IMG/VR virus record: IMGVR_UViG_3300047564_000582
Location: 1 to 30,118 of that record
Source of the DNA: a virus
DNA length: 30,118 nt
Direction: 5' to 3' (one strand)
Positions 2,865 through 19,294 of this stretch are shown here, one piece after another (within the stretch, counting starts at the first letter, position 1; each line of letters starts with the position of its first letter). The position numbers and the translations under genes are program-made. The notes under the pieces were generated by a model. It made no database searches. It was not told where the DNA came from and saw nothing but the letters and a program-made list of their open reading frames with translations.

Positions 2865-5117
2865 ATGGTAGAACCTGGCAAAGAGCTAACGTTAGTTTTT
2901 GACAAAGCAGTAAATGATGCTAAAAAACTGCAACATGAATATGTAACACTTGAACATCTAGTGTATGCTATGTTCTGCGAAGAAAACTTTGTTAAAATGA
3001 TTAATATGTATGGCGGTGATGTAGATTATGTCAAAGCCAATATTGAACATCATTTGAAAACACAGTGTGACGATATCAAAACAGATATGGTCAAATATAA
3101 GCCTAAAAAAACACAAACAGTTGAGCGTGTTCTTAATCGTGCGTTTACACAAGTATTGTTTGCTGGACGTAATAATATTGAACTGGCTGATGTATTACTC
3201 AGCGCACTCAGTGAAAAGAAAAGTATTGCTGTTTACTATCTAGAAAAGGGTGGTATTGAACGTCCTAAGTTTAGTGATTTTGTTAACTCAGAGTTTGATG
3301 AGTTTTTGGCAGAAGAAGCCGCAGAAGAGATTGCGCCCGAAGTTCGCAAAGCTCTACGCAGTTTTACTGTTGATCTTAATGAACAAGTTAAGAAAGGTAA
3401 GGTTGATCCTATCATTGGCAGAGAAGATGAGCTAGAAAGCCTAGCACTTGCACTAGGACGTAGATCAAAAAACAACGTACTGCTAGTAGGTGATCCGGGT
3501 GTTGGTAAGACTGCTATTGCAGAAGGACTTGCGTTTAACATTGTAAATGGTGCTGTTCCAGAGTTCTTAAAAGACTATAAAGTATACAACCTAGATATCG
3601 GTGCTATGCTGGCTGGGTCTAAGTATAGAGGTGACTTTGAAGAACGTTTTAAGCTGGTTCTACAAGGGTTAACCAAACAAGGCAAAACTATCATGTTTGT
3701 AGACGAAGCACACATGATGAATGGTGCTGGTGCAGGCGGTAGTGGTAACTCAAACGATCTTGCTAACATGCTCAAGCCTGCTCTTACTAAAGGTGATTTA
3801 AAAGTTGTAGCATCGACCACCTGGGATGAATATCGCAAGTATTTTGAAAAAGATCGTGCGCTGATGCGCAGATTCCAGCGTGTAACTGTAAGTGAACCTA
3901 CTCCTGAAGTTACAAAAGATATTTTACGTGGACTTAAGAAGTATTACGAAGATTATCATAAAACTACAATCACAGAATCAGCCATTGAAGCTGCTGTTAA
4001 ACTGAGTGTAAAATATCAAAGTGATAAAAAGCTACCAGACAAAGCCATTGATCTTATTGACGTAGCTTGTGCTAGATTCAAACTGCGTGACGACTATGAA
4101 GGTGAAAAGGTAGTAAGCGAAGCTGAAGTTCAGTTCGAACTGGCTAAAATGGTGAATATGCCTGCTGAACAGGTTGCTGAAAAAGAAACAGAAAATCTCA
4201 AAAATCTTGAAACTAATCTCAAAGGTTCAGTATTTGGTCAAGACGATGCTATCGAAAGTATTGTTGACAAGATTCTTGTTAGTCAAGCAGGATTAAAGCC
4301 TGACGACAAACCTGTAGGCAGCTTTGTGTTTATGGGCCCAACTGGCACAGGTAAAACTGAGACTGCTAAACAATTGGCTAAGAATCTCGGTGTAAAGCTA
4401 GTGCGGTTTGACATGAGCGAATACATGGAGAAACACTCAGTAGCCAAGCTGATCGGTTCACCTCCAGGATATGTTGGCCATGAAGATAACGGCGGCCAGC
4501 TAATCACACGTCTACAAGAAAATCCTAACTGTGTGTTGTTGTTAGACGAGATTGAAAAAGCACATCCCGATGTAAGTCAGATCTTGCTACAGTTAATGGA
4601 CAACGGCAAAGTGACAGGGTCTAATGGCAAAGAAGCTGATGCTCGTAACTGTGTGCTAATCCTTACCACTAACCTAGGTGCTGCGCAAACAGAAAAGAAC
4701 AGCATTGGATTTGGTAGTGTAGAAGATAACACCTACGAAGATACAGAATTCAAACGTTTCTTTGCTCCGGAGTTTCGTAACAGACTTGATGGCGTAATCA
4801 CATTTGCTAAACTTGGCAAGCCGGTGATGATGAAGATTGTTGGCAAGTTCTTGCTTGAACTTAAAAACATGGTCATAGATAAAGATATTGCTATTACTGT
4901 TACTGACGATGCCCTTGACTATCTTGTAGACAAAGGATTTGATCCTAAGAATGGCGCTCGTCCTCTACAGCGTGTGATCGATAAAGAAATCAAACGTCCG
5001 CTAAGTCGTCAGATATTGTTTGGTGATCTAAAGAATGGCGGTAGTGTTGTTATTGATTTCCGTGAAGAAGAAATCAAGCTAGACGTTGTGGCAGAAGAAG
5101 AAAATGAAACAGTTTGA
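2865..5117 (+). CDS. clpA: ClpA-type double-AAA+ unfoldase
   Basis: 750 residues, close to bacterial ClpA. Order: Clp_N repeats (about 5-135); first AAA+ domain with Walker A GDPGVGKT (209-216) and Walker B FVDEAH (278-283) plus pore loop KYRG (253-256); second AAA+ domain with GPTGTGKT (491-498), LLLDEIEKAH (558-567) and pore loop GYVG (535-538); C-terminal small domain with GARPLQR. The ClpB-type middle coiled coil is absent. The loop KNSIGFGSVED (611-621) matches the position of the ClpP-docking IGL/IGF loop of ClpA/ClpX, so it may load substrates into host ClpP. AAGGA lies 6 bases before the start. Confidence 0.93.
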   Translation: MVEPGKELTLVFDKAVNDAKKLQHEYVTLEHLVYAMFCEENFVKMINMYGGDVDYVKANIEHHLKTQCDDIKTDMVKYKPKKTQTVERVLNRAFTQVLFAGRNNIELADVLLSALSEKKSIAVYYLEKGGIERPKFSDFVNSEFDEFLAEEAAEEIAPEVRKALRSFTVDLNEQVKKGKVDPIIGREDELESLALALGRRSKNNVLLVGDPGVGKTAIAEGLAFNIVNGAVPEFLKDYKVYNLDIGAMLAGSKYRGDFEERFKLVLQGLTKQGKTIMFVDEAHMMNGAGAGGSGNSNDLANMLKPALTKGDLKVVASTTWDEYRKYFEKDRALMRRFQRVTVSEPTPEVTKDILRGLKKYYEDYHKTTITESAIEAAVKLSVKYQSDKKLPDKAIDLIDVACARFKLRDDYEGEKVVSEAEVQFELAKMVNMPAEQVAEKETENLKNLETNLKGSVFGQDDAIESIVDKILVSQAGLKPDDKPVGSFVFMGPTGTGKTETAKQLAKNLGVKLVRFDMSEYMEKHSVAKLIGSPPGYVGHEDNGGQLITRLQENPNCVLLLDEIEKAHPDVSQILLQLMDNGKVTGSNGKEADARNCVLILTTNLGAAQTEKNSIGFGSVEDNTYEDTEFKRFFAPEFRNRLDGVITFAKLGKPVMMKIVGKFLLELKNMVIDKDIAITVTDDALDYLVDKGFDPKNGARPLQRVIDKEIKRPLSRQILFGDLKNGGSVVIDFREEEIKLDVVAEEENETV

Positions 5118-6700: not shown

Positions 6701-7017
6701 AGTTAGTCGAGTTTGAGAAAAAGGAAATACCCTTTGACGTAGTAGAAGACGTTGCCATCTATATGCGTAACGATCCTATAGTTTATCGCAAAAGTCTTTT
6801 TCCTGCTATTGTGCGTATGAAAGATATACACGACGGTGGCAAAAGTCCTGTACCAGAGCGTTGTTTAGGCGAAGTTGTAGACCGTGCAATGAACAGCTAT
6901 TGTGAAAAATACAAACTAGGATCTCCGCAGAATGTGTTTAAAAAAGGCGACAGAGAAGCTATTATACAAAAACTGTTTTCAGAAGAACTAACACAGATAC
7001 GCAGAGGTGCTTACTGA
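6694..7017 (+). CDS. Conserved hypothetical protein with GTG start
   Basis: 107 residues from GTG 6694, chosen because GGAG at 6681-6684 lies 9 bases upstream; TTG 6685 would sit directly against that site. It overlaps the preceding gene by 7 bases and shares one base with the next (TGATG). The protein is mostly helical with charged surfaces (DVVEDVAIYMRNDPIVYRKS, DREAIIQKLFSEELTQIRRG). No catalytic motif is seen. Its fixed place before the ligase-like gene suggests head or core assembly, but I do not recognise a named function. Confidence 0.6.
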   Translation: MVKLVEFEKKEIPFDVVEDVAIYMRNDPIVYRKSLFPAIVRMKDIHDGGKSPVPERCLGEVVDRAMNSYCEKYKLGSPQNVFKKGDREAIIQKLFSEELTQIRRGAY

Positions 7018-8126
7018 TGCGTTTTTTAGAATTTCTCAACACTCCAAAAAAAAATATTCTCACTGAAGCTGCTAAGGTAGGTCGCGAGTTTCAGCATCTT
7101 GAGGATCTTGTGTTTGTTGATGGATCAGAAGGCGCATTAGAAGCAGCAGACATACTAGAAAAACTAGGCAGCAATGCAGATGATGTAGCCATTAAGTGGG
7201 ACGGCAATCCTACAGTATACTGGGGCAGAGAACCTAACGGTGAGTTTGTGCTAGTGGGCAAAAACGGCTGGGGAAGACAAAAATCAACTGATCCAGACGA
7301 TCTAGCTAACTTTATTAAAAGTTCAGGCAAGGGCGAAGACTGGAGAGAAAAGTTTGGTAATGACATGGCACAGATTTTCCGCATCATGGAAGGTGCTACG
7401 CCACCAGACTTTCGCGGTTATGTGTTCGGTGATTTGCTGTATCATCCCGGCAAGCCTTATCAAGACGCAGACAACAAACTAGAGTTTACACCTAACCTAG
7501 TCACTTACTCCGTAGACAAACGCAGTACATTAGGCAAACGTATTGCTGGCAGTAGTGTAGGTGTTGCTGTACATGGCAAATACGAAGAGTTCGGTAGTAA
7601 GAGCGGTGAACCTATATCGGATGTTGGCGAACTCAACAGTGGTGATGCTGTTGTGCTAGGACAAACCTACGTAACTCATCAACCCAAAATCAATGTTGAT
7701 GAAGTAAAAGAAATACGTGCTATGGTGCAACGTAATGCACAGGCCATAGACAGTTTCTTAGAACCACAGGCCGGTCTAAGTGATATGAAGAATATTATCT
7801 ATACCTATGTTAACCAAATGAGTCGCAGTCGCCAGCTTAAAAATCTAGAAACAGGGTTTTTTGATTGGCTAAGTACAGGTGGCAAAGTTAGCCCCAACAA
7901 ACAAGCAAAAATACAGGCTATGTCGGAAGCTAATCCCAAAGCATTAGCTGCAATCTTTGGATTAGTAAAACGTATTATGGCAGCTAAAGATCATGTTATT
8001 GATCAACTTGATTCAGCAGATGCAGATGTTACAGCAACTACCAGAGGCGAAAAAGGCGGAGAAGGTTATGTGGCTCTTGGCAGCAAGACCAAACTAGTAC
8101 CAAGAACACGCTGGCAACCAAACTAA
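7017..8126 (+). CDS. Ligase-like covalent nucleotidyltransferase fold with capsid-targeting-type leader
   Basis: 369 residues. The core shows the order of covalent nucleotidyltransferases (DNA/RNA ligases, capping enzymes): motif I KWDGNP with candidate nucleotidyl-lysine K60, an Arg at about 71, a strand YVFGDLLY near 135-142 as motif III, EGYV near 349-352 as motif IV and KTKLV near 357-361 as motif V. There is no OB-fold after motif V, unlike full DNA ligases. The N-terminus MRFLEFLNTPKKNILTEAAK resembles T4 capsid-targeting leaders and carries an LTE/A site at 15-18. Similar proteins are common in cyanomyoviruses. Activity and substrate are unknown; RNA or DNA end sealing or nucleotidylation are options. 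Confidence 0.7.
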   Translation: MRFLEFLNTPKKNILTEAAKVGREFQHLEDLVFVDGSEGALEAADILEKLGSNADDVAIKWDGNPTVYWGREPNGEFVLVGKNGWGRQKSTDPDDLANFIKSSGKGEDWREKFGNDMAQIFRIMEGATPPDFRGYVFGDLLYHPGKPYQDADNKLEFTPNLVTYSVDKRSTLGKRIAGSSVGVAVHGKYEEFGSKSGEPISDVGELNSGDAVVLGQTYVTHQPKINVDEVKEIRAMVQRNAQAIDSFLEPQAGLSDMKNIIYTYVNQMSRSRQLKNLETGFFDWLSTGGKVSPNKQAKIQAMSEANPKALAAIFGLVKRIMAAKDHVIDQLDSADADVTATTRGEKGGEGYVALGSKTKLVPRTRWQPN

Positions 8127-8135
8127 GGAACAACT

Positions 8136-8840
8136 ATGCTACTGAGAAAACTATTTGAAGCGCCAGCAAAAAGAGCTGTACTAGCATTTGGTAGATTAAA
8201 TCCGCCCACTGTAGGACATGCTAAGTTAGTTGACACTATCGCAAGCATAGAAGGTGATCACTATCTTTTTCTTAGCCATACACAAAAGCCTAAAACAGAT
8301 CCGTTAGACTTTCAAACCAAACTAAAGTTTGCCAAGCAGTTTTTTCCTAGCGTAGTTGTAGGTGATATTGGTGTAAAAACTCCTGTGCAGGCATTAGAGT
8401 TACTTCAGAGCAAGGGTTATACAGACATTATATTTGTAGCAGGTTCGGATCGTGTAGAAGGTTTTCAAAGTCTGTTTGATACTTATAATGGCCAGCCTGA
8501 TAAAACTGGTAAAGTACCATTTAAGTTTAATTCAATACGTGTAGTAAGTGCAGGCGAACGTGATCCGGATGCAGATGACGTAAGTGGCATGAGTGCTAGT
8601 AAAATGAGAGCACTGGCTGCACAAGGCGAATTAAATTCATTTGCTCAAGGTGTTCCTGACAAAAAGCTAGCCAAGACTATGTATGACGCTGTTCGTCAGG
8701 CTATGGGCATTAAGGAAGATGCTAGTGCTAGACAAGAATACGAATTTCATAAAAAGTTAGATAAACTTGTACACAAAACATTTGGTACTCGTCCAGAAGA
8801 AAAGAAAACGAAGAAAGACAAAAAATATGGACGAACTTAA
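8136..8840 (+). CDS. TxGH nucleotidylyltransferase (NMNAT/cytidylyltransferase superfamily) with leader
   Basis: 234 residues. FGRLNPPTVGH (18-28) is the nucleotide-binding (H/T)xGH motif, and SGMSASKMR later matches the ISxTxxR-type second motif, so the Rossmann-like nucleotidylyltransferase fold is well supported. The GRxNPP form is nearest to NMN adenylyltransferases and phage cytidylyltransferase-like proteins; the substrate is not fixed by sequence. The first residues MLLRKLFEAP give an LFE/A site at 6-9, like T4 internal-protein leaders. The C-terminal 40 residues are lysine-rich and look disordered. AAGGA lies 5 bases before the ATG. It follows the ligase-like gene directly, so the two may act together. 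Confidence 0.8.
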   Translation: MLLRKLFEAPAKRAVLAFGRLNPPTVGHAKLVDTIASIEGDHYLFLSHTQKPKTDPLDFQTKLKFAKQFFPSVVVGDIGVKTPVQALELLQSKGYTDIIFVAGSDRVEGFQSLFDTYNGQPDKTGKVPFKFNSIRVVSAGERDPDADDVSGMSASKMRALAAQGELNSFAQGVPDKKLAKTMYDAVRQAMGIKEDASARQEYEFHKKLDKLVHKTFGTRPEEKKTKKDKKYGRT

Positions 8841-9057
8841 TTATATAAAAAAACTAGCAGGTATAACCAATGAATTCACAGGCTATAAGCCATACAATGA
8901 AAATATATCTGTCACAGGCACAGAAAAAAAGCGTATAGAGCGCGAACGCAATATACAACCAGGCACTGAAGAATGGTTTAAGCTGTGGTTTAGTTTGCCG
9001 CACATGACCGGAGCACTAAATCAGCAGCCTGGATTTAGAGGACGTAAAAAGAAATGA
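8827..9057 (+). CDS. Small conserved phage protein with MDELxYIK start
   Basis: 76 residues from ATG 8827, overlapping the previous gene by 14 bases; a TTG far upstream is in frame but not needed. It opens MDELNYIKKLAGITNEF, a short amphipathic helix of a type repeated in marine myophage structural proteins, and contains a conserved-looking block PGTEEWFKLWFSLPHMTG before a basic C-terminus (RGRKKK). The MDELxYIK start is found again as a fragment at 12254. No enzymatic motif. A core- or capsid-associated role is inference from neighbours. Confidence 0.65.
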   Translation: MDELNYIKKLAGITNEFTGYKPYNENISVTGTEKKRIERERNIQPGTEEWFKLWFSLPHMTGALNQQPGFRGRKKK

Positions 9058-9272
9058 AACGGTTTTTTAAACGCTTATGGAGAGGTTGGTTCCCACACTA
9101 TTATCTTTATCTAACACATAGAGGTAAAGAACATGCAATCTATGTAACTGATTTTAAAAAGCTTACACCAAAGAAGATAAGCGGATATAACAAAGACCGT
9201 GAATATTTTGAGTTTATTAGTATAGAGCCTATGGAATATTTTATTGAAGAATACAGGGATGATTTAGTGTGA
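9054..9272 (+). CDS. Small basic protein of unknown function
   Basis: 72 residues, joined to both neighbours by 4-base overlaps (ATGA before, GTGA after). It starts with a basic aromatic stretch (MKRFFKRLWRGWFPHYYLYL) and continues with short strands (HAIYVTDFKKL) and an acidic end (EYFIEEYRDDLV). It is not clearly a membrane protein, since the hydrophobic run is short and broken by His/Pro. No family recognised. Tight coupling supports it being a real gene. Confidence 0.55.
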   Translation: MKRFFKRLWRGWFPHYYLYLTHRGKEHAIYVTDFKKLTPKKISGYNKDREYFEFISIEPMEYFIEEYRDDLV

Positions 9273-9688
9273 GAGAATATATTAAGATCATAGAAGCAGC
9301 AAACAAAGGTTGTCCTATTGCAACTCAAGATATTGATGTAAATCTTAAAAATCGTCAAAAAGGTATTGACGATTATTTCTACGGTCCTGCTAATCCCGAT
9401 GAACCAGGTAACTATTGGAAATCAGCAGCCAAGCGTTGGGGCATAGACGAAAAAACTGCAAAAACAATGAAGTGTGCTAATTGCGCAGCATTTGATGTTT
9501 CAGATAAAATGTGGTCTTGTATAGAATCAGGTATACAAGGTGATGACAAAGATGTTGATGCAATGGCAACTATACATAAATCAGACTTAGGATACTGCAA
9601 CTTCCTGCATTTTAAGTGTGCAGGTACAAGATCGTGTACTGCTTGGGTTACAGGCGGGGCCATTGACAACAAGGATCGCACCCAATGA
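9269..9688 (+). CDS. Cysteine-rich HiPIP-like protein with leader
   Basis: 139 residues from a GTG start overlapping the preceding stop (GTGA). The cysteines are CANC (about 69-72), one in MWSCIESG, then a C-terminal cluster YCNFLHFKCAGTRSCTAW. CxxC followed by spaced cysteines ending in a C-x2-W pattern recalls high-potential iron-sulfur proteins, in which four Cys hold a 4Fe-4S cluster; zinc binding is an alternative. There is no Tat or Sec signal, unlike periplasmic HiPIPs. The N-terminus MREYIKIIEAANKG gives an IIE/A site at 7-10, matching neighbouring leader-bearing proteins. Redox or structural role unknown. Confidence 0.6.
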   Translation: MREYIKIIEAANKGCPIATQDIDVNLKNRQKGIDDYFYGPANPDEPGNYWKSAAKRWGIDEKTAKTMKCANCAAFDVSDKMWSCIESGIQGDDKDVDAMATIHKSDLGYCNFLHFKCAGTRSCTAWVTGGAIDNKDRTQ

Positions 9689-12168
9689 AGGTACAAGAAT
9701 TATTTGAAAATGGTAACTTAGGGTTAACAATCTTTGACATTGATGATACGCTGTTTAGGACTACTGCACAAATCAAAGTTGTAAAAGACGGCAAGATTAT
9801 TAAAAGCCTAAACAACCAAGAGTTTAACACTTATAAACTACAGCCGGGCGAAAGTTTTGATTTTGGTGAATTCCAAAATGCAGAAAAGTTCAACAAAGAA
9901 AGTATTCCAATTGAACCAATGATTGCTAAACTTAAAGCAATAATAAACAATGCAGGCAATAGTAAAGTTATCATGCTTACTGCTAGATCAGATTTTGATA
10001 ACAAAGAACTATTTTTAGATACATTTAGAAAATATGGCATTGACATGAGTCGAGTTCATGTGCATCGTGCAGGCAATCTCGGAGGATCACCTTCACAAAA
10101 CAAAGCTGTATGGATTAGAAAATATTTAGATACAGGTAAGTTTGCTAGAGTGCGTCTTTATGACGATGCTATGAGCAACATCAAAATGTTTATTAATCTA
10201 CAAAAAGAATATCCTGATGTAAAGTTTTTTCCATATTTTGTAACTCATGAAGGCAGTATCAAAACCATAAGAGAAGATGGCCGTATTGTAAAGGGCGTTA
10301 ACACTACAGTTGATGTAGGTCCTAACGAAATTAAAACTCAAGCAGCTAAGTTTGGTAATACAGTAGATCGTGATGGACGTCCACCTACAATGAGCAAAGC
10401 TGTAAAAGGCAAATCAACTAATGTGCTGTATAATCTAGGTTTAGCAGAAAGCAGTGAGCCAAGATACACTGCCAAAGAGTGGGCTATCATGGAAGGTGGC
10501 CATAGTTTAGAAGATATAAAATCACAGCCAAAAAAACCAGGTAGAATTTTTTCTGCATTAGATGAATACGAATTAGAAGATAGACATCCTAACGAACGTC
10601 CTGTCGGGCCGGAAATTAAACCTACTATGCCTAAAGGTACTATTCGTGTAAAAGTGTCAGATGTTTACGATTGGTACAAACTAGGACAACACATAAGTGA
10701 CTTAGAAGGACTGGGCAAGCATGACTTTGGTAAAGGCCCACCTGAGGCTGTTATATCTTTTGGCAGCGAAGATCAAGAACACAAATATATAGCTTTACTT
10801 AAAAAGTTAGGGCTAGATATTATCGACGTTGATCCCGGAGAACACGGCGATATAAAAGGTATTGAGAAAGACTCTAACTATAATGTCGGAGAAAACTTTG
10901 TAGATGTCAAAAAAACAGATAACAAAAACTATTTGTTACAGCTAGAGCGTGACAAACGTGCTGGCATGTTAATATTGCATATTTTAGATAAAGACACCGG
11001 TAAACGAACAGAAGTACGTGGCAAAATGGGATATGAAACCAATGGCTACGACCCAAATGATAAACTGCATCAACTGTTGGACAAAGTAGGAAAAAGTGCC
11101 AGTGTAAGCGACCTTATGAATGGCGATGTTGTTAGTATCAACCCACGTCATCCAGATGGTGCAAGTGCAAAAGCAGCCGCTGACCGTGCTCACAACGAAG
11201 CGTTTGATACCGAGGTCAATTGGGTTAAGGATATGGACCGTGACGGTATAGAAGTGTTTGCTACAAAAGTTGACGATGCTTACATAGAACTTACTTATAA
11301 ACGTATGGCTAATGATGATGTATATATTGCGTTTAGTAGGGGCGGGCGTAGCAGTGTCACAGGCGAAGGCGGCCAAAATAAAATATTTGGTGCTGTTATA
11401 AATCATATTACACAACACATTGGTAAACTAAAACCACCAAGAATAGTGTTCAGTGCGTTTAAACCTAACACTGGTCCGTTTGGAACTAAAGATACTACAA
11501 GAAGCAGTCTTTATCGTAAAATGGTGCAACGCTTTGCTGGTCAAAACGGTTATGAATATGATGTAGAAGATACTGGCAACGAAGATACTTTTATTCTTAC
11601 TAGAAAGAATGTAGAAGAAACTAGATCATTTCAGCCACAAACAACACCGCTACAAGCACTAGTATTAGAATATTTAACTTTTACATCAACTGGTATAATG
11701 ACCATAGTCAGCGACGGTGCTAAATCTCCGCAAGCAGCAGAAGAACTTAAAAAAGTATTTCAAACATTAAATCAAAGTAATAAAAAATTACAAGCTGTTG
11801 CCAACGACAAACAAAAACTAGAAGCAAACAAGACTGCTATATTAAAAAACATTTACGATATGATGACCTATGCTATAGCACATCTTAAAGCAAACATGAT
11901 TCCACAAGAATTTGATTCTAAAAAGAAACAAATTAACTCAGTACTGACCAAATATAATGACCTTACTAAAAATGAATCTGTTGAAGAAAACTTTGCAGAT
12001 GGTAAGAAGCCTGGACGTAAAGGGTTAGCCAAACGCAGCGGAGTAAATACTAAAGCAAGTGTAAGTAGTTTAAGAAAGACTGCTAAAAACAGTTCAGGTG
12101 AAAAGCAAAGGATGGCACATTGGCTAGCGAATATGAAAGCAGGTCGCAAAAAAGCGGCAAAGAAATAG
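9685..12168 (+). CDS. Large multidomain virion-type protein: HAD hydrolase plus further modules
   Basis: 827 residues, coupled to the previous gene (ATGA). The leader MKVQELFENG has an LFE site at 6-8. A HAD phosphatase-like domain follows: motif I FDIDDT (17-22, nucleophile D18), motif II Thr in MLTAR (about 97-101) and motif IV YDDA (159-162). Around 318-385 is a separate module (VSDVYDWYKLGQHISDLEGL, then GPPEAVISFGSEDQEHKY). At about 505-640 is a mixed alpha/beta domain (GIEVFATK, AYIELTYK, IVFSAFKPN, SLYRKMVQRFA) with an acetyltransferase-like strand/helix rhythm. A basic C-terminus (about 780-827, SSLRKTAKNSSGEKQRMAHW then ANMKAGRKKAAKK) could bind DNA. The HAD call is firm; the others are tentative. 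Confidence 0.7.
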   Translation: MKVQELFENGNLGLTIFDIDDTLFRTTAQIKVVKDGKIIKSLNNQEFNTYKLQPGESFDFGEFQNAEKFNKESIPIEPMIAKLKAIINNAGNSKVIMLTARSDFDNKELFLDTFRKYGIDMSRVHVHRAGNLGGSPSQNKAVWIRKYLDTGKFARVRLYDDAMSNIKMFINLQKEYPDVKFFPYFVTHEGSIKTIREDGRIVKGVNTTVDVGPNEIKTQAAKFGNTVDRDGRPPTMSKAVKGKSTNVLYNLGLAESSEPRYTAKEWAIMEGGHSLEDIKSQPKKPGRIFSALDEYELEDRHPNERPVGPEIKPTMPKGTIRVKVSDVYDWYKLGQHISDLEGLGKHDFGKGPPEAVISFGSEDQEHKYIALLKKLGLDIIDVDPGEHGDIKGIEKDSNYNVGENFVDVKKTDNKNYLLQLERDKRAGMLILHILDKDTGKRTEVRGKMGYETNGYDPNDKLHQLLDKVGKSASVSDLMNGDVVSINPRHPDGASAKAAADRAHNEAFDTEVNWVKDMDRDGIEVFATKVDDAYIELTYKRMANDDVYIAFSRGGRSSVTGEGGQNKIFGAVINHITQHIGKLKPPRIVFSAFKPNTGPFGTKDTTRSSLYRKMVQRFAGQNGYEYDVEDTGNEDTFILTRKNVEETRSFQPQTTPLQALVLEYLTFTSTGIMTIVSDGAKSPQAAEELKKVFQTLNQSNKKLQAVANDKQKLEANKTAILKNIYDMMTYAIAHLKANMIPQEFDSKKKQINSVLTKYNDLTKNESVEENFADGKKPGRKGLAKRSGVNTKASVSSLRKTAKNSSGEKQRMAHWLANMKAGRKKAAKK

Positions 12169-12322
12169 ACTTTTATACTTTTTATGTGCAAAAACACAAA
12201 GAGCACGAAGCCCGTGCAGCATCAACTGACGACCGACAGGAATTTTGGAAACAATGGACGAACTTGAATATATCAAAAGACTTGTAGAAATAAAACATAA
12301 AAGCTAAAAGGGATAAAAAGAA
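12169..12322 (+). other. Short intergenic gap with gene remnants
   Basis: The gap between two virion-type genes has no full gene. It holds a 5-bp GC hairpin (GCACG 12203-12207, CGTGC 12213-12217), a frame encoding a charged peptide (KEHEARAASTDDRQEFWKQW) with no good start, and the short frame at 12254. Together these look like the decayed end of a former gene. Confidence 0.45.
12254..12307 (+). pseudogene. 17-codon MDELEYIK fragment
   Basis: ATG 12254 opens MDELEYIKRLVEIKHKS and then stops. Its first eight codons repeat the start of the gene at 8827 (MDELNYIKKLAGI) at both protein and DNA level (ATGGACGAACTT identical). No Shine-Dalgarno site of note precedes it. It may be a truncated paralogue of that gene or a functional micropeptide; truncation seems more likely. 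Confidence 0.4.
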
Positions 12323-13159
12323 ATGATAGTAAATGAGATTATCACTGAACTGGGAAGAGAAGAAAAAGCCAAAACAGCTGGCAACATTTTTATGAGATTT
12401 GGTGTTAAAAAACCTATTGCTACAGCAGGCGGTGGCGACGAACCTTATCTAGTAGGTTATGCAGGATTTGCTAATACACCAGCAGACCTAAAGTTTGCGG
12501 ATGCAAAATGGAAGTTCTATAATCTCAAAAGCAAAGAAGATTTAGTAAACGCTATCAAAAAAATGTTGGCTGATAAAACCTTTACAGCAGCAGGCGGAGT
12601 TACAATATCTATAGACACACCTTCGTTAGCTAATAGATTTTCTCATCTAGGTGAATTCTTAGGTTGGGTAGAGCGAGCCAGCAACGGCAAAGTAAAAGTC
12701 GAATACAAAGAAAAAGAAAAGTCTGACAAGGTTGACAATAAGGTTACTGTAAAAGGTAAGAAAAAAGCGCCAGACGCATCATGGGGCAGTGCCGACGCAC
12801 GAGTTGAACCAGCAGCAAAGAAAATCACAAGGCACTTTACAGTTACTAGTCCAAGACTAATGGGCATGTTACGTAAAAACGATCGTGTGATGCAGTATTT
12901 TAAACCAAACGCAAATGAGTTTGTAATGGGACCAAAAGACTTTGATGCATTTGTAAAAGCATTTGGTCGTGAAGATATAAAGATTACTAAAAAGTTTAGC
13001 GAAGACATTGTCGAAACAACTTCAGCAGGATCAGTAGCTGCTGTATCTATGGGCGTCGGACCTGTATTATCAAGACAGCCTAAAAACGCCGACGGTACTG
13101 CAAAAAACGCACTAGATATGGTGTCTAATAAAAAGAAACCAAAGAGTAAAAAAGCATAA
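12323..13159 (+). CDS. Probable internal/core virion protein with leader and TTSAGS motif
   Basis: 278 residues. The start MIVNEIITELGREE carries an ITE site at 7-9 and resembles the short leader of T4 Alt (MELITE, from memory). The body has a folded N-terminal part (about 20-125), a lysine-rich linker (about 126-150), a second folded part (about 165-235) and a tail with ETTSAGSVAAVSMGVG. That TTSAGSVA motif recurs, in my recollection, in core or internal proteins of marine T4-like phages. The end is basic (KKKPKSKKA). AAGGGAT lies upstream at 12308. No enzyme signature is visible. Capsid interior location is inferred. Confidence 0.6.
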   Translation: MIVNEIITELGREEKAKTAGNIFMRFGVKKPIATAGGGDEPYLVGYAGFANTPADLKFADAKWKFYNLKSKEDLVNAIKKMLADKTFTAAGGVTISIDTPSLANRFSHLGEFLGWVERASNGKVKVEYKEKEKSDKVDNKVTVKGKKKAPDASWGSADARVEPAAKKITRHFTVTSPRLMGMLRKNDRVMQYFKPNANEFVMGPKDFDAFVKAFGREDIKITKKFSEDIVETTSAGSVAAVSMGVGPVLSRQPKNADGTAKNALDMVSNKKKPKSKKA

Positions 13160-13188: not shown

Positions 13189-13596
13189 ATGGCTAATAAA
13201 GCAAAACTAGATGATAAAAAGAAAAAAACTAACGAAGGCTTAGGCGAACTGGCTGACATGGCAGAACGTGATCATGAAGTGCAAATGGCTCGTGCTGAAC
13301 TTTACAAGATTGCAAAATATGCAATTAAACTACACGATCTGTTAAAAAATGTAACCGAAGCAGAAGGTATTGAAGGCTGGCAACAAAGTAAGATTACCAA
13401 AGCAGCAGATTACATGGGATCAGTTTATCATAGTTTAGAGTATGATAAAAAAGTTGCACCAGAAAATAAAATAGATCCAATGGTTATGGCACAGGCTGCT
13501 AAAGAATCAACAGATCCCTACAAATCACGGTTACACAGCAAACTTGCTGAACACAAACTTACTACAGTTATAACTAAAGCAGTCAAAAAGAAGTAA
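13189..13596 (+). CDS. Helical conserved virion/core protein
   Basis: 135 residues, almost entirely helical and charged. A lysine-rich start (KAKLDDKKKKTNEG) leads to a long helix (DHEVQMARAELYKIAKYAIK), then GIEGWQQSKITKAADYMGSVYHSLEY. The tail SRLHSKLAEHK is similar to the C-terminus of the protein at 13907 (DMLYAKLAEKK). This DHEVQMAR family is one I recall as nearly universal in marine T4-like phages near head genes. A scaffold or core role is inferred. GGAG at 13179-13182 lies 6 bases before the ATG; the stop is fused to the next start (TAATG). Confidence 0.65.
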   Translation: MANKAKLDDKKKKTNEGLGELADMAERDHEVQMARAELYKIAKYAIKLHDLLKNVTEAEGIEGWQQSKITKAADYMGSVYHSLEYDKKVAPENKIDPMVMAQAAKESTDPYKSRLHSKLAEHKLTTVITKAVKKK

Positions 13597-13906: not shown

Positions 13907-14797
13907 ATGGACTGGCATAAACTTCAACAAACACTATTTGCACTGGACCCAACTGACCCGAAAGAAGATTTGGCAAAGTTAAGAGCAGCGGCTCAGGGTT
14001 CGGCGGTACCAAAAGCCAGCGAAACTGTAGATTATCTAACTGAAAGTGCTAGCGTTCCTGAGGGTTCTTTAAAAATAGACAGAGATTATAGTGTAGCTGA
14101 TTTTGCTGCTCTTGCAGGCGTAAGAATAGATGAGCGTCAAAAGCACGGAGATTATGCTAGAGGTTCAGATCCTATGCCCAAAGCAAAGCCGGGTCGTACC
14201 AAACACCCACTCAAAGACAAACTAGTAGGCGAAGAAGAAGTTGAAGAAAACTTTGTTGACGCAGTTAAGGCTGGCGCAGCTAACTACAACAGAGTAGGTG
14301 CTGTTAAAGCTGGTGCAGATGCCATGGCCGGGGGCGGTGCTAAATCTGCTGCAACCAAAGCAGCGCCACAACAACAAGCTCAAAAAATAAAAAGTAGTGT
14401 TACAGGAGCACAACTAGGTAGACAACTAGGTGTAAGTGATCTCAATGCTTTTAATCAAGCCGTAATGAGAGTAAAGCAAGGTCAACCATTGGGCAGAATG
14501 CATCAGGCTGCTATGTCGGATGCTTTTGTAAAACTAATGGCAATGAGCCCAGAAGAAACTCAGCGTGTAATGCAGTTATTGAAAAGATCAGAAGCTCAAA
14601 CTGAAGCAGAAAAGAAACCCATGCCAAAACCTAGAGATCCTAGTTCACAATACATGCAGGATCTTCGCAAAAGCGGTGCTATGGGCGCACACAAAGATAA
14701 GAAAAAAGATACCAAAAGCGGTAAAGTTAAGCACAAAGGCTATCAGTACGAATCAATCAAGGATATGCTCTACGCTAAACTCGCAGAGAAAAAATGA
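13907..14797 (+). CDS. Conserved virion/core protein (MDWHKLQ family)
   Basis: 296 residues. It opens MDWHKLQQTLFALDPTDPKE, followed by DLAKLRAAAQ, a start I recall from many cyanomyovirus and pelagiphage genomes. The N-terminal third contains EGSLKIDRDYSVADFAALAG. The middle is Ala/Gly/Gln-rich and low in complexity (about 115-165). A helical segment follows (about 165-225). The C-terminus is very basic (KKDTKSGKVKHKGYQYES) and ends in a short helix DMLYAKLAEKK. A VEENFVD motif near 108-114 also occurs in the 827-residue protein. No enzyme motif. Probably a head-core or internal protein. AAAAGGA at 13892-13898 precedes the ATG. Confidence 0.6.
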   Translation: MDWHKLQQTLFALDPTDPKEDLAKLRAAAQGSAVPKASETVDYLTESASVPEGSLKIDRDYSVADFAALAGVRIDERQKHGDYARGSDPMPKAKPGRTKHPLKDKLVGEEEVEENFVDAVKAGAANYNRVGAVKAGADAMAGGGAKSAATKAAPQQQAQKIKSSVTGAQLGRQLGVSDLNAFNQAVMRVKQGQPLGRMHQAAMSDAFVKLMAMSPEETQRVMQLLKRSEAQTEAEKKPMPKPRDPSSQYMQDLRKSGAMGAHKDKKKDTKSGKVKHKGYQYESIKDMLYAKLAEKK

Positions 14798-18737: not shown

Positions 18738-18872
18738 ATGCGTGTTTTACTTTTAGTTTTGTTATTATCTGGATGTGCTAACGTACAAGATAATACTACA
18801 GTAGGTGACAAGGCAGTAATAGGCGGAGTTTTTACTGTGATGATTATAGCTGCAAGGGGGATGGGATTATGA
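18738..18872 (+). CDS. 44-residue lipoprotein, missed by length cutoffs
   Basis: ATG 18738 opens MRVLLLVLLLSGCANVQDNT: a basic residue, a run of Leu/Val and the lipobox LLSGC with Cys13, so signal peptidase II should leave a short lipoprotein of about 32 residues. The mature part has a second hydrophobic stretch (AVIGGVFTVMIIAA) and ends RGMGL. The stop overlaps the next start as ATGA, the typical coupling in this genome. The frame uses ordinary codons. Possible roles are superinfection exclusion at the envelope or an extra outer-membrane lysis factor; neither is shown. Confidence 0.65.
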   Translation: MRVLLLVLLLSGCANVQDNTTVGDKAVIGGVFTVMIIAARGMGL

Positions 18873-19294
18873 AGGTAGGAATAACTTTTAGCACTTTTGA
18901 TTTACTTCACGCAGGACATGTTCAAATGCTGCGAGAAGCTAAAGAACAGTGTGATTACTTGATCTGTGGTTTACAAATGGATCCTAGTGTAGATCGACCG
19001 ACTAAAAACACACCTGTGCAAACTATAGTTGAACGTTATACACAATTGAAAGGTGTAAAATATGTTGACGAAATCATTCCCTATGCTACAGAACGAGATC
19101 TTGAAGATATCTTGACAATGTATCATATTGATGTTAGAATATTAGGGGAAGAGTATAGAGAGATGGATTTTACGGGCAAGGATATCTGTAAGAAGCGAGG
19201 TATTCAGCTTTACTTTAACAAACGTGACCATCGCTTCTCCTCAAGTGATCTTAGGCGCCGCGTAGCAGAAAGAGAAAATTTCAATGACAAATAA
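18869..19294 (+). CDS. Glycerol-3-phosphate cytidylyltransferase-like protein (TagD type)
   Basis: 141 residues, close to TagD length. GITFSTFDLLHAGHVQML carries the HxGH motif (HAGH, residues 14-17). YVDEIIPY and the DVRILGEEYRE segment match the TagD body. FSSSDLRRR replaces the usual RTxGISTTxx signature, keeping Ser and Arg. The family transfers CMP to glycerol phosphate or related sugar phosphates, or AMP/ADP to heptose phosphates. Substrate cannot be fixed. It is followed by a phosphomannomutase-like gene (11-base overlap) and an epimerase, suggesting one pathway making an activated sugar or polyol. Confidence 0.82.
   Translation: MKVGITFSTFDLLHAGHVQMLREAKEQCDYLICGLQMDPSVDRPTKNTPVQTIVERYTQLKGVKYVDEIIPYATERDLEDILTMYHIDVRILGEEYREMDFTGKDICKKRGIQLYFNKRDHRFSSSDLRRRVAERENFNDK

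Follow-up and report, generated by a model that had tools for sequence, protein, structure and literature searches.

It is suggested here that a block of genes in a marine T4-like myovirus is, very probably, a capsid-targeted cargo island, the products of which would be trimmed by an S77 prohead protease and injected, with the 827-aa ORF at 9685 as a probable polyprotein. The window, by which is meant the whole 30,118-base viral record IMGVR_UViG_3300047564_000582, is a piece of such a myovirus and is known as a fragment only. No head genes are present within its 30,118 bases, and a megablast comparison with named phages gave no match. Conserved leaders, a site grammar common to real prohead substrates, and mobile modules with border sites are the direct results of the analysis.

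Five ORFs between 7017 and 13159 open with a leader ending in (L/I)xE, and all five N-termini lie at the starts given in a first-pass annotation of this DNA (Table 1). Their description there as hydrophobic/acidic needs correction, since most are basic-hydrophobic-acidic, of the form M[KR]hx[DE]hxE. The leaders are 8-17 residues long, three of them slightly shorter than those of T4. The GTG start of ORF 9269 is followed by the same leader in homologues, and homologues of ORF 9685 begin with MKIIDLFE, MKAIDLLE, MKNFKTFLLE or MRLRSYLTE. The proposal in the same annotation that a shared start before unrelated bodies represents a common delivery signal is supported by conservation in homologues, by a shared site grammar, and by mass spectrometry of homologues in virions.

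Each cargo protein would bind the prohead core through its N-terminal capsid-targeting sequence. Once the shell had closed, an S77 prohead protease of the gp21 type would cut after the Glu of (L/I)xE, leaving the mature protein free in the head, and the mature cargo would pass into the host along with the DNA, to act there ahead of phage gene expression. In the 827-aa product of ORF 9685, further protease sites would link a HAD phosphatase, several modules and a basic tail, each of which would be set free as a product of its own. By its recognisable bodies, the cargo may comprise an NMNAT-like nucleotidylyltransferase, a ligase-like DUF6267 protein, a polynucleotide-kinase-type HAD phosphatase and an iron-sulfur-like protein. 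Cleavage, release of modules, injection and cargo function are all what we infer from these features.

Table 1. Leaders, bodies and modules in and beside the cargo block; ORFs are named by first base, and a slash marks a predicted or candidate cut
Feature	Coordinates	Strand	Description
Leader, ORF 7017	7017..7067	+	MRFLEFLNTPKKNILTE/A, predicted cut after E17; site in 49/50 distinct homologue prefixes
Body, ORF 7017	7068..8126	+	DUF6267, Pfam E 8.3e-28; predicted covalent nucleotidyltransferase, ligase-like, KxDG at K60
Leader, ORF 8136	8136..8159	+	MLLRKLFE/A, predicted cut after E8
Body, ORF 8136	8160..8840	+	Adenylyl/cytidylyltransferase, NMNAT-like; PHROG 3041 cytidyltransferase E 6.6e-52
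Leader, ORF 9269	9269..9295	+	MREYIKIIE/A, predicted cut after E9; GTG start
Body, ORF 9269	9296..9688	+	Small conserved Cys-rich protein; high-potential-iron-sulfur-like per annotation of distant homologues
Leader, ORF 9685	9685..9708	+	MKVQELFE/N, predicted cut after E8
HAD phosphatase module, aa 9-197	9709..10275	+	PHROG 415 polynucleotide kinase; ends at candidate site TIRE/D
GRIVKGVNTT module, aa 198-255	10276..10449	+	Ends at candidate site GLAE/S
Module, aa 295-403	10567..10893	+	Ends at candidate site NVGE/N; partial homologue L223 spans aa 293-409
Modules, aa 404-645	10894..11619	+	LQLERD module and PHROG 6387-like domain; end at candidate site NVEE/T
Helical module, aa 646-768	11620..11988	+	Ends at candidate site SVEE/N
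Basic C-terminal module, aa 769-827	11989..12168	+	NFADGKKPGRKG; Glu at P1 in 23/23 non-redundant internal and 2/2 leader contexts
Leader, ORF 12323	12323..12349	+	MIVNEIITE/L, predicted cut after E9
Body, ORF 12323	12350..13159	+	No family match in profile searches
N-terminal stretch, ORF 13189	13189..13236	+	MANKAKLDDKKKKTNE, ends TNE/GLGELADMAE

Around the block, the window carries a ClpA-like AAA+ unfoldase gene (2865-5117) about 2 kb upstream, after a DnaJ-like ORF, and the same ClpA-like gene lies upstream of the island in the relative G001 and in L136 too. A second nucleotidyltransferase, rfaE/glycerol-3-phosphate cytidylyltransferase-like, is encoded outside the block at 18869-19294; it is leaderless and provides a contrast to ORF 8136 within the window. 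The T4 late promoter TATAAATA has no exact match in the window and its one-mismatch matches are fewer than expected by chance, so the promoter search says nothing on the timing of expression.

Frequency of the leader motif

Taken alone, the evidence on which the first-pass annotation relied is thin, as the bare [LI]xE motif with Glu at residues 7-12 is only modestly enriched in the window, in 8 of 50 ORFs compared with 3.0 +/- 1.7 in shuffles. A leader PSSM trained on the distant phage G002 alone ranked the five ORFs 1, 2, 3, 5 and 6 of the 50, where about 0.5 would be expected at that score, and on the 146-kb relative G001 its top places went to five leader ORFs. In T4 the same PSSM placed IPII 7th and IPIII 8th of 325, with genes such as uvsY ranking above them. 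Because of this want of specificity a motif match in a single protein proves little, and conservation at the level of families was relied on instead. The PSSM was rejected as a stand-alone detector for its behaviour in T4, and also because the leader is present on just one of seven virion-labelled proteins in the stretch of cyanophage S-SCSM1 examined. A strict form of the leader motif, which within the window is found in ORF 9685 only, occurs in 75 of 1,658 protein families from related contigs and in 1.4 +/- 1.2 in shuffles.

It could be that the likeness of the N-termini is due to chance, or to a generic amphipathic start unrelated to the capsid, and that these are ordinary intracellular enzymes. 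The modest enrichment of the bare motif within the window would agree with this, as would the high score of T4 UvsY (MRLEDLQE/E), which is not known to be a head protein. In spite of this, we regard such an explanation as very improbable, given the 75 families against 1.4, the presence of the site in 121 of 126 distinct prefixes across four families, and the detection of homologues in virions by mass spectrometry; simple chance was rejected on the first two of these.

Conservation of the site and separability of the leader

Homologues were taken from viral contigs and their N-termini compared, with counts made over distinct prefixes. In the DUF6267 family the (hydrophobic)xE site is present in 49 of 50 prefixes, P3 being L, I, V or M in the same number and the site being LTE in 39, while prefix length ranges from 12 to 27 residues and some prefixes contain two sites in tandem (LTEAILTEEF). 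The site is likewise found in 24/26 prefixes of the nucleotidylyltransferase family, 38/39 of the Cys-protein family and 10/11 of the HAD family; for ORF 12323, intact N-termini were available in two homologues only, both with E/L. Alignment across relatives, one of the checks proposed in the first-pass annotation, thus finds the site kept though bodies and leader sequences differ. A cut site that is conserved while the sequence and length of the leader drift is the pattern predicted for a removable signal.

The leader is also separable from the body, as the same body occurs with and without it in the nucleotidylyltransferase and DUF6267 families. In the jumbo phages Muenster and SP27 the nucleotidylyltransferases start directly with the enzyme, their genes lying beside a DNA methyltransferase, and DUF6267 is without a leader in the cyanophages examined, whereas it carries one both in the Methylophilales phage Melnitz (MLTLINFSKYITE/D) and in the window. 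A further leaderless homologue is the HAD protein of L223. That the same bodies occur leaderless indicates that the enzyme fold does not include the leader; in the structure model of ORF 7017, pLDDT falls below 50 in residues 1-19 only, so that the leader is disordered in the model.

The Cys-rich protein (9269-9688, and L200-L279) is unusually conserved; at least 80 viral contigs, several of them longer than 200 kb, encode it at about 70-87% identity.

Prohead protease and head proteins of related phages

Two members of the first set of relatives, G002 and G008, encode gp23, and both have an S77 prohead protease as well. Among 12 further long contigs, all five with gp23 have the protease, and seven are without both, as is to be expected of fragments. 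One relative, G009, is much like the window in gene content and order, carries the same kind of leaders, and has both S77 protease and gp23. A conserved site in gp23 reads L[SAM]E/[SA]ATAG in the five further contigs and VL[NS]E/G in G002 and G008; the scaffold in four relatives starts with LFE/NN or LLE/S; and the prohead protease itself starts with MKNYLSE/H, MSLYLRE/N or MLNLTE/T in relatives. This comparison with prohead proteins, another check that had been proposed, shows that cargo and real prohead substrates share one (L/I)xE grammar.

This bears on whether the leaders could be assembly tags that bind the prohead core and are never removed, the cargo being packaged unprocessed. There is precedent in T4, where Asp at leader position 10 still permits targeting without processing (PMC9026906). 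However, conservation is higher at the cut site than in the remainder of the leader, and gp23 and scaffold of the same genomes have matching sites; we consider an unremoved tag improbable.

Two relatives have further features of note. About 25 proteins of the 120-kb phage G002 (L079-L085; 54547-60821, 72545-75892, 98239-102774, 119079) have a leader of the M[KR]LxxYLxE type, far above the few capsid-targeted proteins of T4. In G001, positions 53907-99130 (L073-L076) hold a run of about 40 minus-strand genes, in which several N-termini like FCLLPWVHLSTRPDGSMRVCC resemble SPASM-type radical SAM proteins and sugar-nucleotide enzyme-like proteins are also encoded.

Leader-bearing proteins in cyanophage virions

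Published virion analyses of cyanophages proved informative in relation to the leader. The report on S-SM1 records a T4-GC190 nucleotidylyltransferase in purified virions (PMC3037559). We find that its gene starts MKKFSAFLNE/A, close to MKTYQEFIAE/A of T4, and that the order of GC71, its DUF6267-like neighbour, and GC190 is that of ORFs 7017 and 8136 in the window. The virion list of S-CREM2 includes enzymes that its authors call non-structural (PMC10665884), and gp6, gp13, gp14 and gp154 of this phage start with MKDFDSFLEE/, MKDLHSFLTE/, MKRFDAFLTE/ and MKNFSSFLTE/A, respectively. In the two S-CREM2 stretches examined, the virion list includes 6 of the 7 profile-positive proteins compared with 11 of the 48 others (Fisher p 0.002), the threshold of 2.5 having been set after the scores were seen. 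The S-SCSM1 virion contains an NMNAT (PMC9602691), which starts MKSFLQFLKE/A; the other six of the seven virion-labelled proteins in the stretch examined are without a T4-type leader. The leader therefore marks some virion proteins and not all.

The virion NMNAT/cytidylyltransferases of S-SM1, S-SCSM1, S-CREM2 and S-CBWM1, reported by mass spectrometry, are homologues or close relatives of the product of ORF 8136. The accessible text of the papers on these proteins gives no packaging mechanism, and the capsid-targeting leader described here would supply one. More widely, a removable capsid address like that of the T4 internal proteins offers a mechanism for the published but unexplained presence in cyanophage virions of enzymes that include NMNAT, SAM hydrolase and kinases.

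The S-CREM2 virion also contains gp12 (L311:4705-7314), annotated as a Cas9-like endonuclease, in which RFASFMAE/A near the N-terminus is a possible capsid-targeting site.

Modular structure of the 827-aa protein

The first-pass annotation found the five leaders and overlooked both the candidate internal sites at module borders of ORF 9685 and a similar site in ORF 13189. From its sequence the 827-aa protein appears to hold several such sites. Like its relatives, with which it was compared in an alignment of 12 rows, it combines several unrelated domains in one polypeptide in an arrangement that is mosaic between relatives, and partial homologues end at its module borders, those of the HAD module stopping at aa 193-196. 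Individual modules are also found elsewhere as separate leader proteins, so that SIKTIRE/DGRIVKG in the window corresponds to MKIDDLFE/DGRIVKG, and ESVEE/NFADGKK, at the basic tail, to MKITELLE/NFADGKK. The GLGEL module of ORF 13189 occurs in relatives behind leaders (MREKDLNE/GLGEL) and behind internal sites.

Over 69 family-by-family junctions, Glu precedes the module in 54%, compared with a background of 6%, and a hydrophobic residue occupies P3 in 52%, compared with a background of 32%. Glu at P1 is invariant before the basic tail (Table 1) and is found in 10/10 contexts of the GLGELAD module and 6/6 of the WSKKYK module. A generic test for any [LIV]xE near any module edge was significant but diluted (16% against 10%, p 1.5e-5), and the module-specific P1 counts are the stronger evidence. 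The structure model of the 827-aa protein is of modest quality, with a mean pLDDT of 66.8; in it, 7 of 10 [LIV]xE sites lie in segments with pLDDT below 50 compared with 11 of 42 other Glu residues. At P3 the internal junctions are less strict than T4 with its L/I, V being common and T, A, K or Q occurring at times; before the basic tail P3 is L, I, V, M or F in 15 of 23 internal contexts. No peptidase family was detected in ORF 9685 or in the related fusions scanned.

It is possible, and we judge the chances to be about even, that marine T4-like phages encode capsid cargo polyproteins, in which chains of enzyme modules behind one leader are cut by the prohead protease at (L/I/V)xE borders, one gene delivering several injected proteins and modules moving freely between single-leader genes and chains. 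If it is true that the chains are cut in the prohead, this would be a polyprotein strategy using the capsid maturation protease, by which several first-strike proteins could be loaded from one gene. A credible though less expected alternative is that the leaders are targeted and trimmed while the 827-aa protein remains uncut, a polyvalent protein injected whole in which the xE borders are relics of gene fusion. Relics of this sort are to be expected where adjacent leader genes fuse, multidomain injected proteins of the polyvalent kind are known (PMC5512222), and P3 is looser at the junctions than at the leaders. Against this, the leader sequence upstream of the junctions has been lost, yet one module retains Glu at P1 in 23/23 contexts, most of them with a hydrophobic P3, and the sites concentrate in low-confidence segments of the model more than other Glu residues do.

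Sites like the cargo borders are also seen in the ORF at 13907-14797 of the window, starting MDWHKLQQTLFALDPTDP, which has LTE/S near residue 46 and EVEE/NFVDAVKAG further on.

Possible function of the cargo

The KWDG motif of the ORF 7017 body is invariant in the alignment. Foldseek searches with DUF6267 gave RNA/DNA ligases as leading matches, the best being RNA ligases and none of them significant, and a profile search of PDB sequences returned nothing useful, so that the term ligase-like rests on the KxDG motif and a weak trend in fold. Phage proteins similar to the Cys-rich protein of ORF 9269 are annotated as high-potential iron-sulfur proteins. Other leader or shared-module proteins in relatives match HicA toxin, Zeta-toxin-like kinase, pterin dehydratase, ParB and NT5C families. 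A reasonable guess from the recognisable bodies is that the cargo could counter early host defences as a nucleotide/NAD and nucleic-acid end-repair kit.

The leader provides a sequence rule, for use at family level, by which the injected proteome of T4-like phages might be predicted in ocean data. For T4, the internal proteins number only about eight. In the literature searched, where coverage of subscription journals was thin, we met no description of marine phage enzymes with capsid-targeting leaders, nor of cargo polyproteins cut by a prohead protease.

Comparison with known systems

The closest parallel is the capsid-targeting system of T4, in which IPI, IPII, IPIII and Alt carry a leader processed by gp21 (PMC9026906, PMC5694885). 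As in that system, a short N-terminal leader to (L/I)xE precedes unrelated bodies, and an S77 protease is present in relatives; ORF 12323 resembles Alt (MELITE/L) in its ITE/L site and ORF 7017 resembles IPI in its long leader. Unlike T4, the bodies are enzyme families spread across many marine phages, leader-bearing families number in the dozens, many leaders are shorter, with Glu at 8 or 9 where T4 has it at 10, and part of the cargo is modular and contains candidate internal sites. T4 gp61.1 (L092:18966-19130), annotated as hypothetical, starts MKTFKEFIKE/D, near the IPI/IPIII leader, and is a candidate for a further internal protein of that phage.

The cargo is also similar to the polyvalent proteins of phages and conjugative elements, which are multidomain, combine unrelated activities, are predicted to be injected with DNA and are mosaic by recombination (PMC5512222). 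Where processed, however, those proteins are released by embedded peptidase domains (PMC5512222), none of which was detected here, and the sites described above fit the phage's own prohead protease. The ejection proteins of phiKZ and SPN3US are comparable head cargo, on which a related prohead protease acts, but they are cut at S/A/G/T-x-E or A-x-E where the sites here are L/I-x-E. Membership of a phiKZ-type system was accordingly rejected on site specificity, as P3 in 49 of the 50 DUF6267 prefixes is L, I, V or M.
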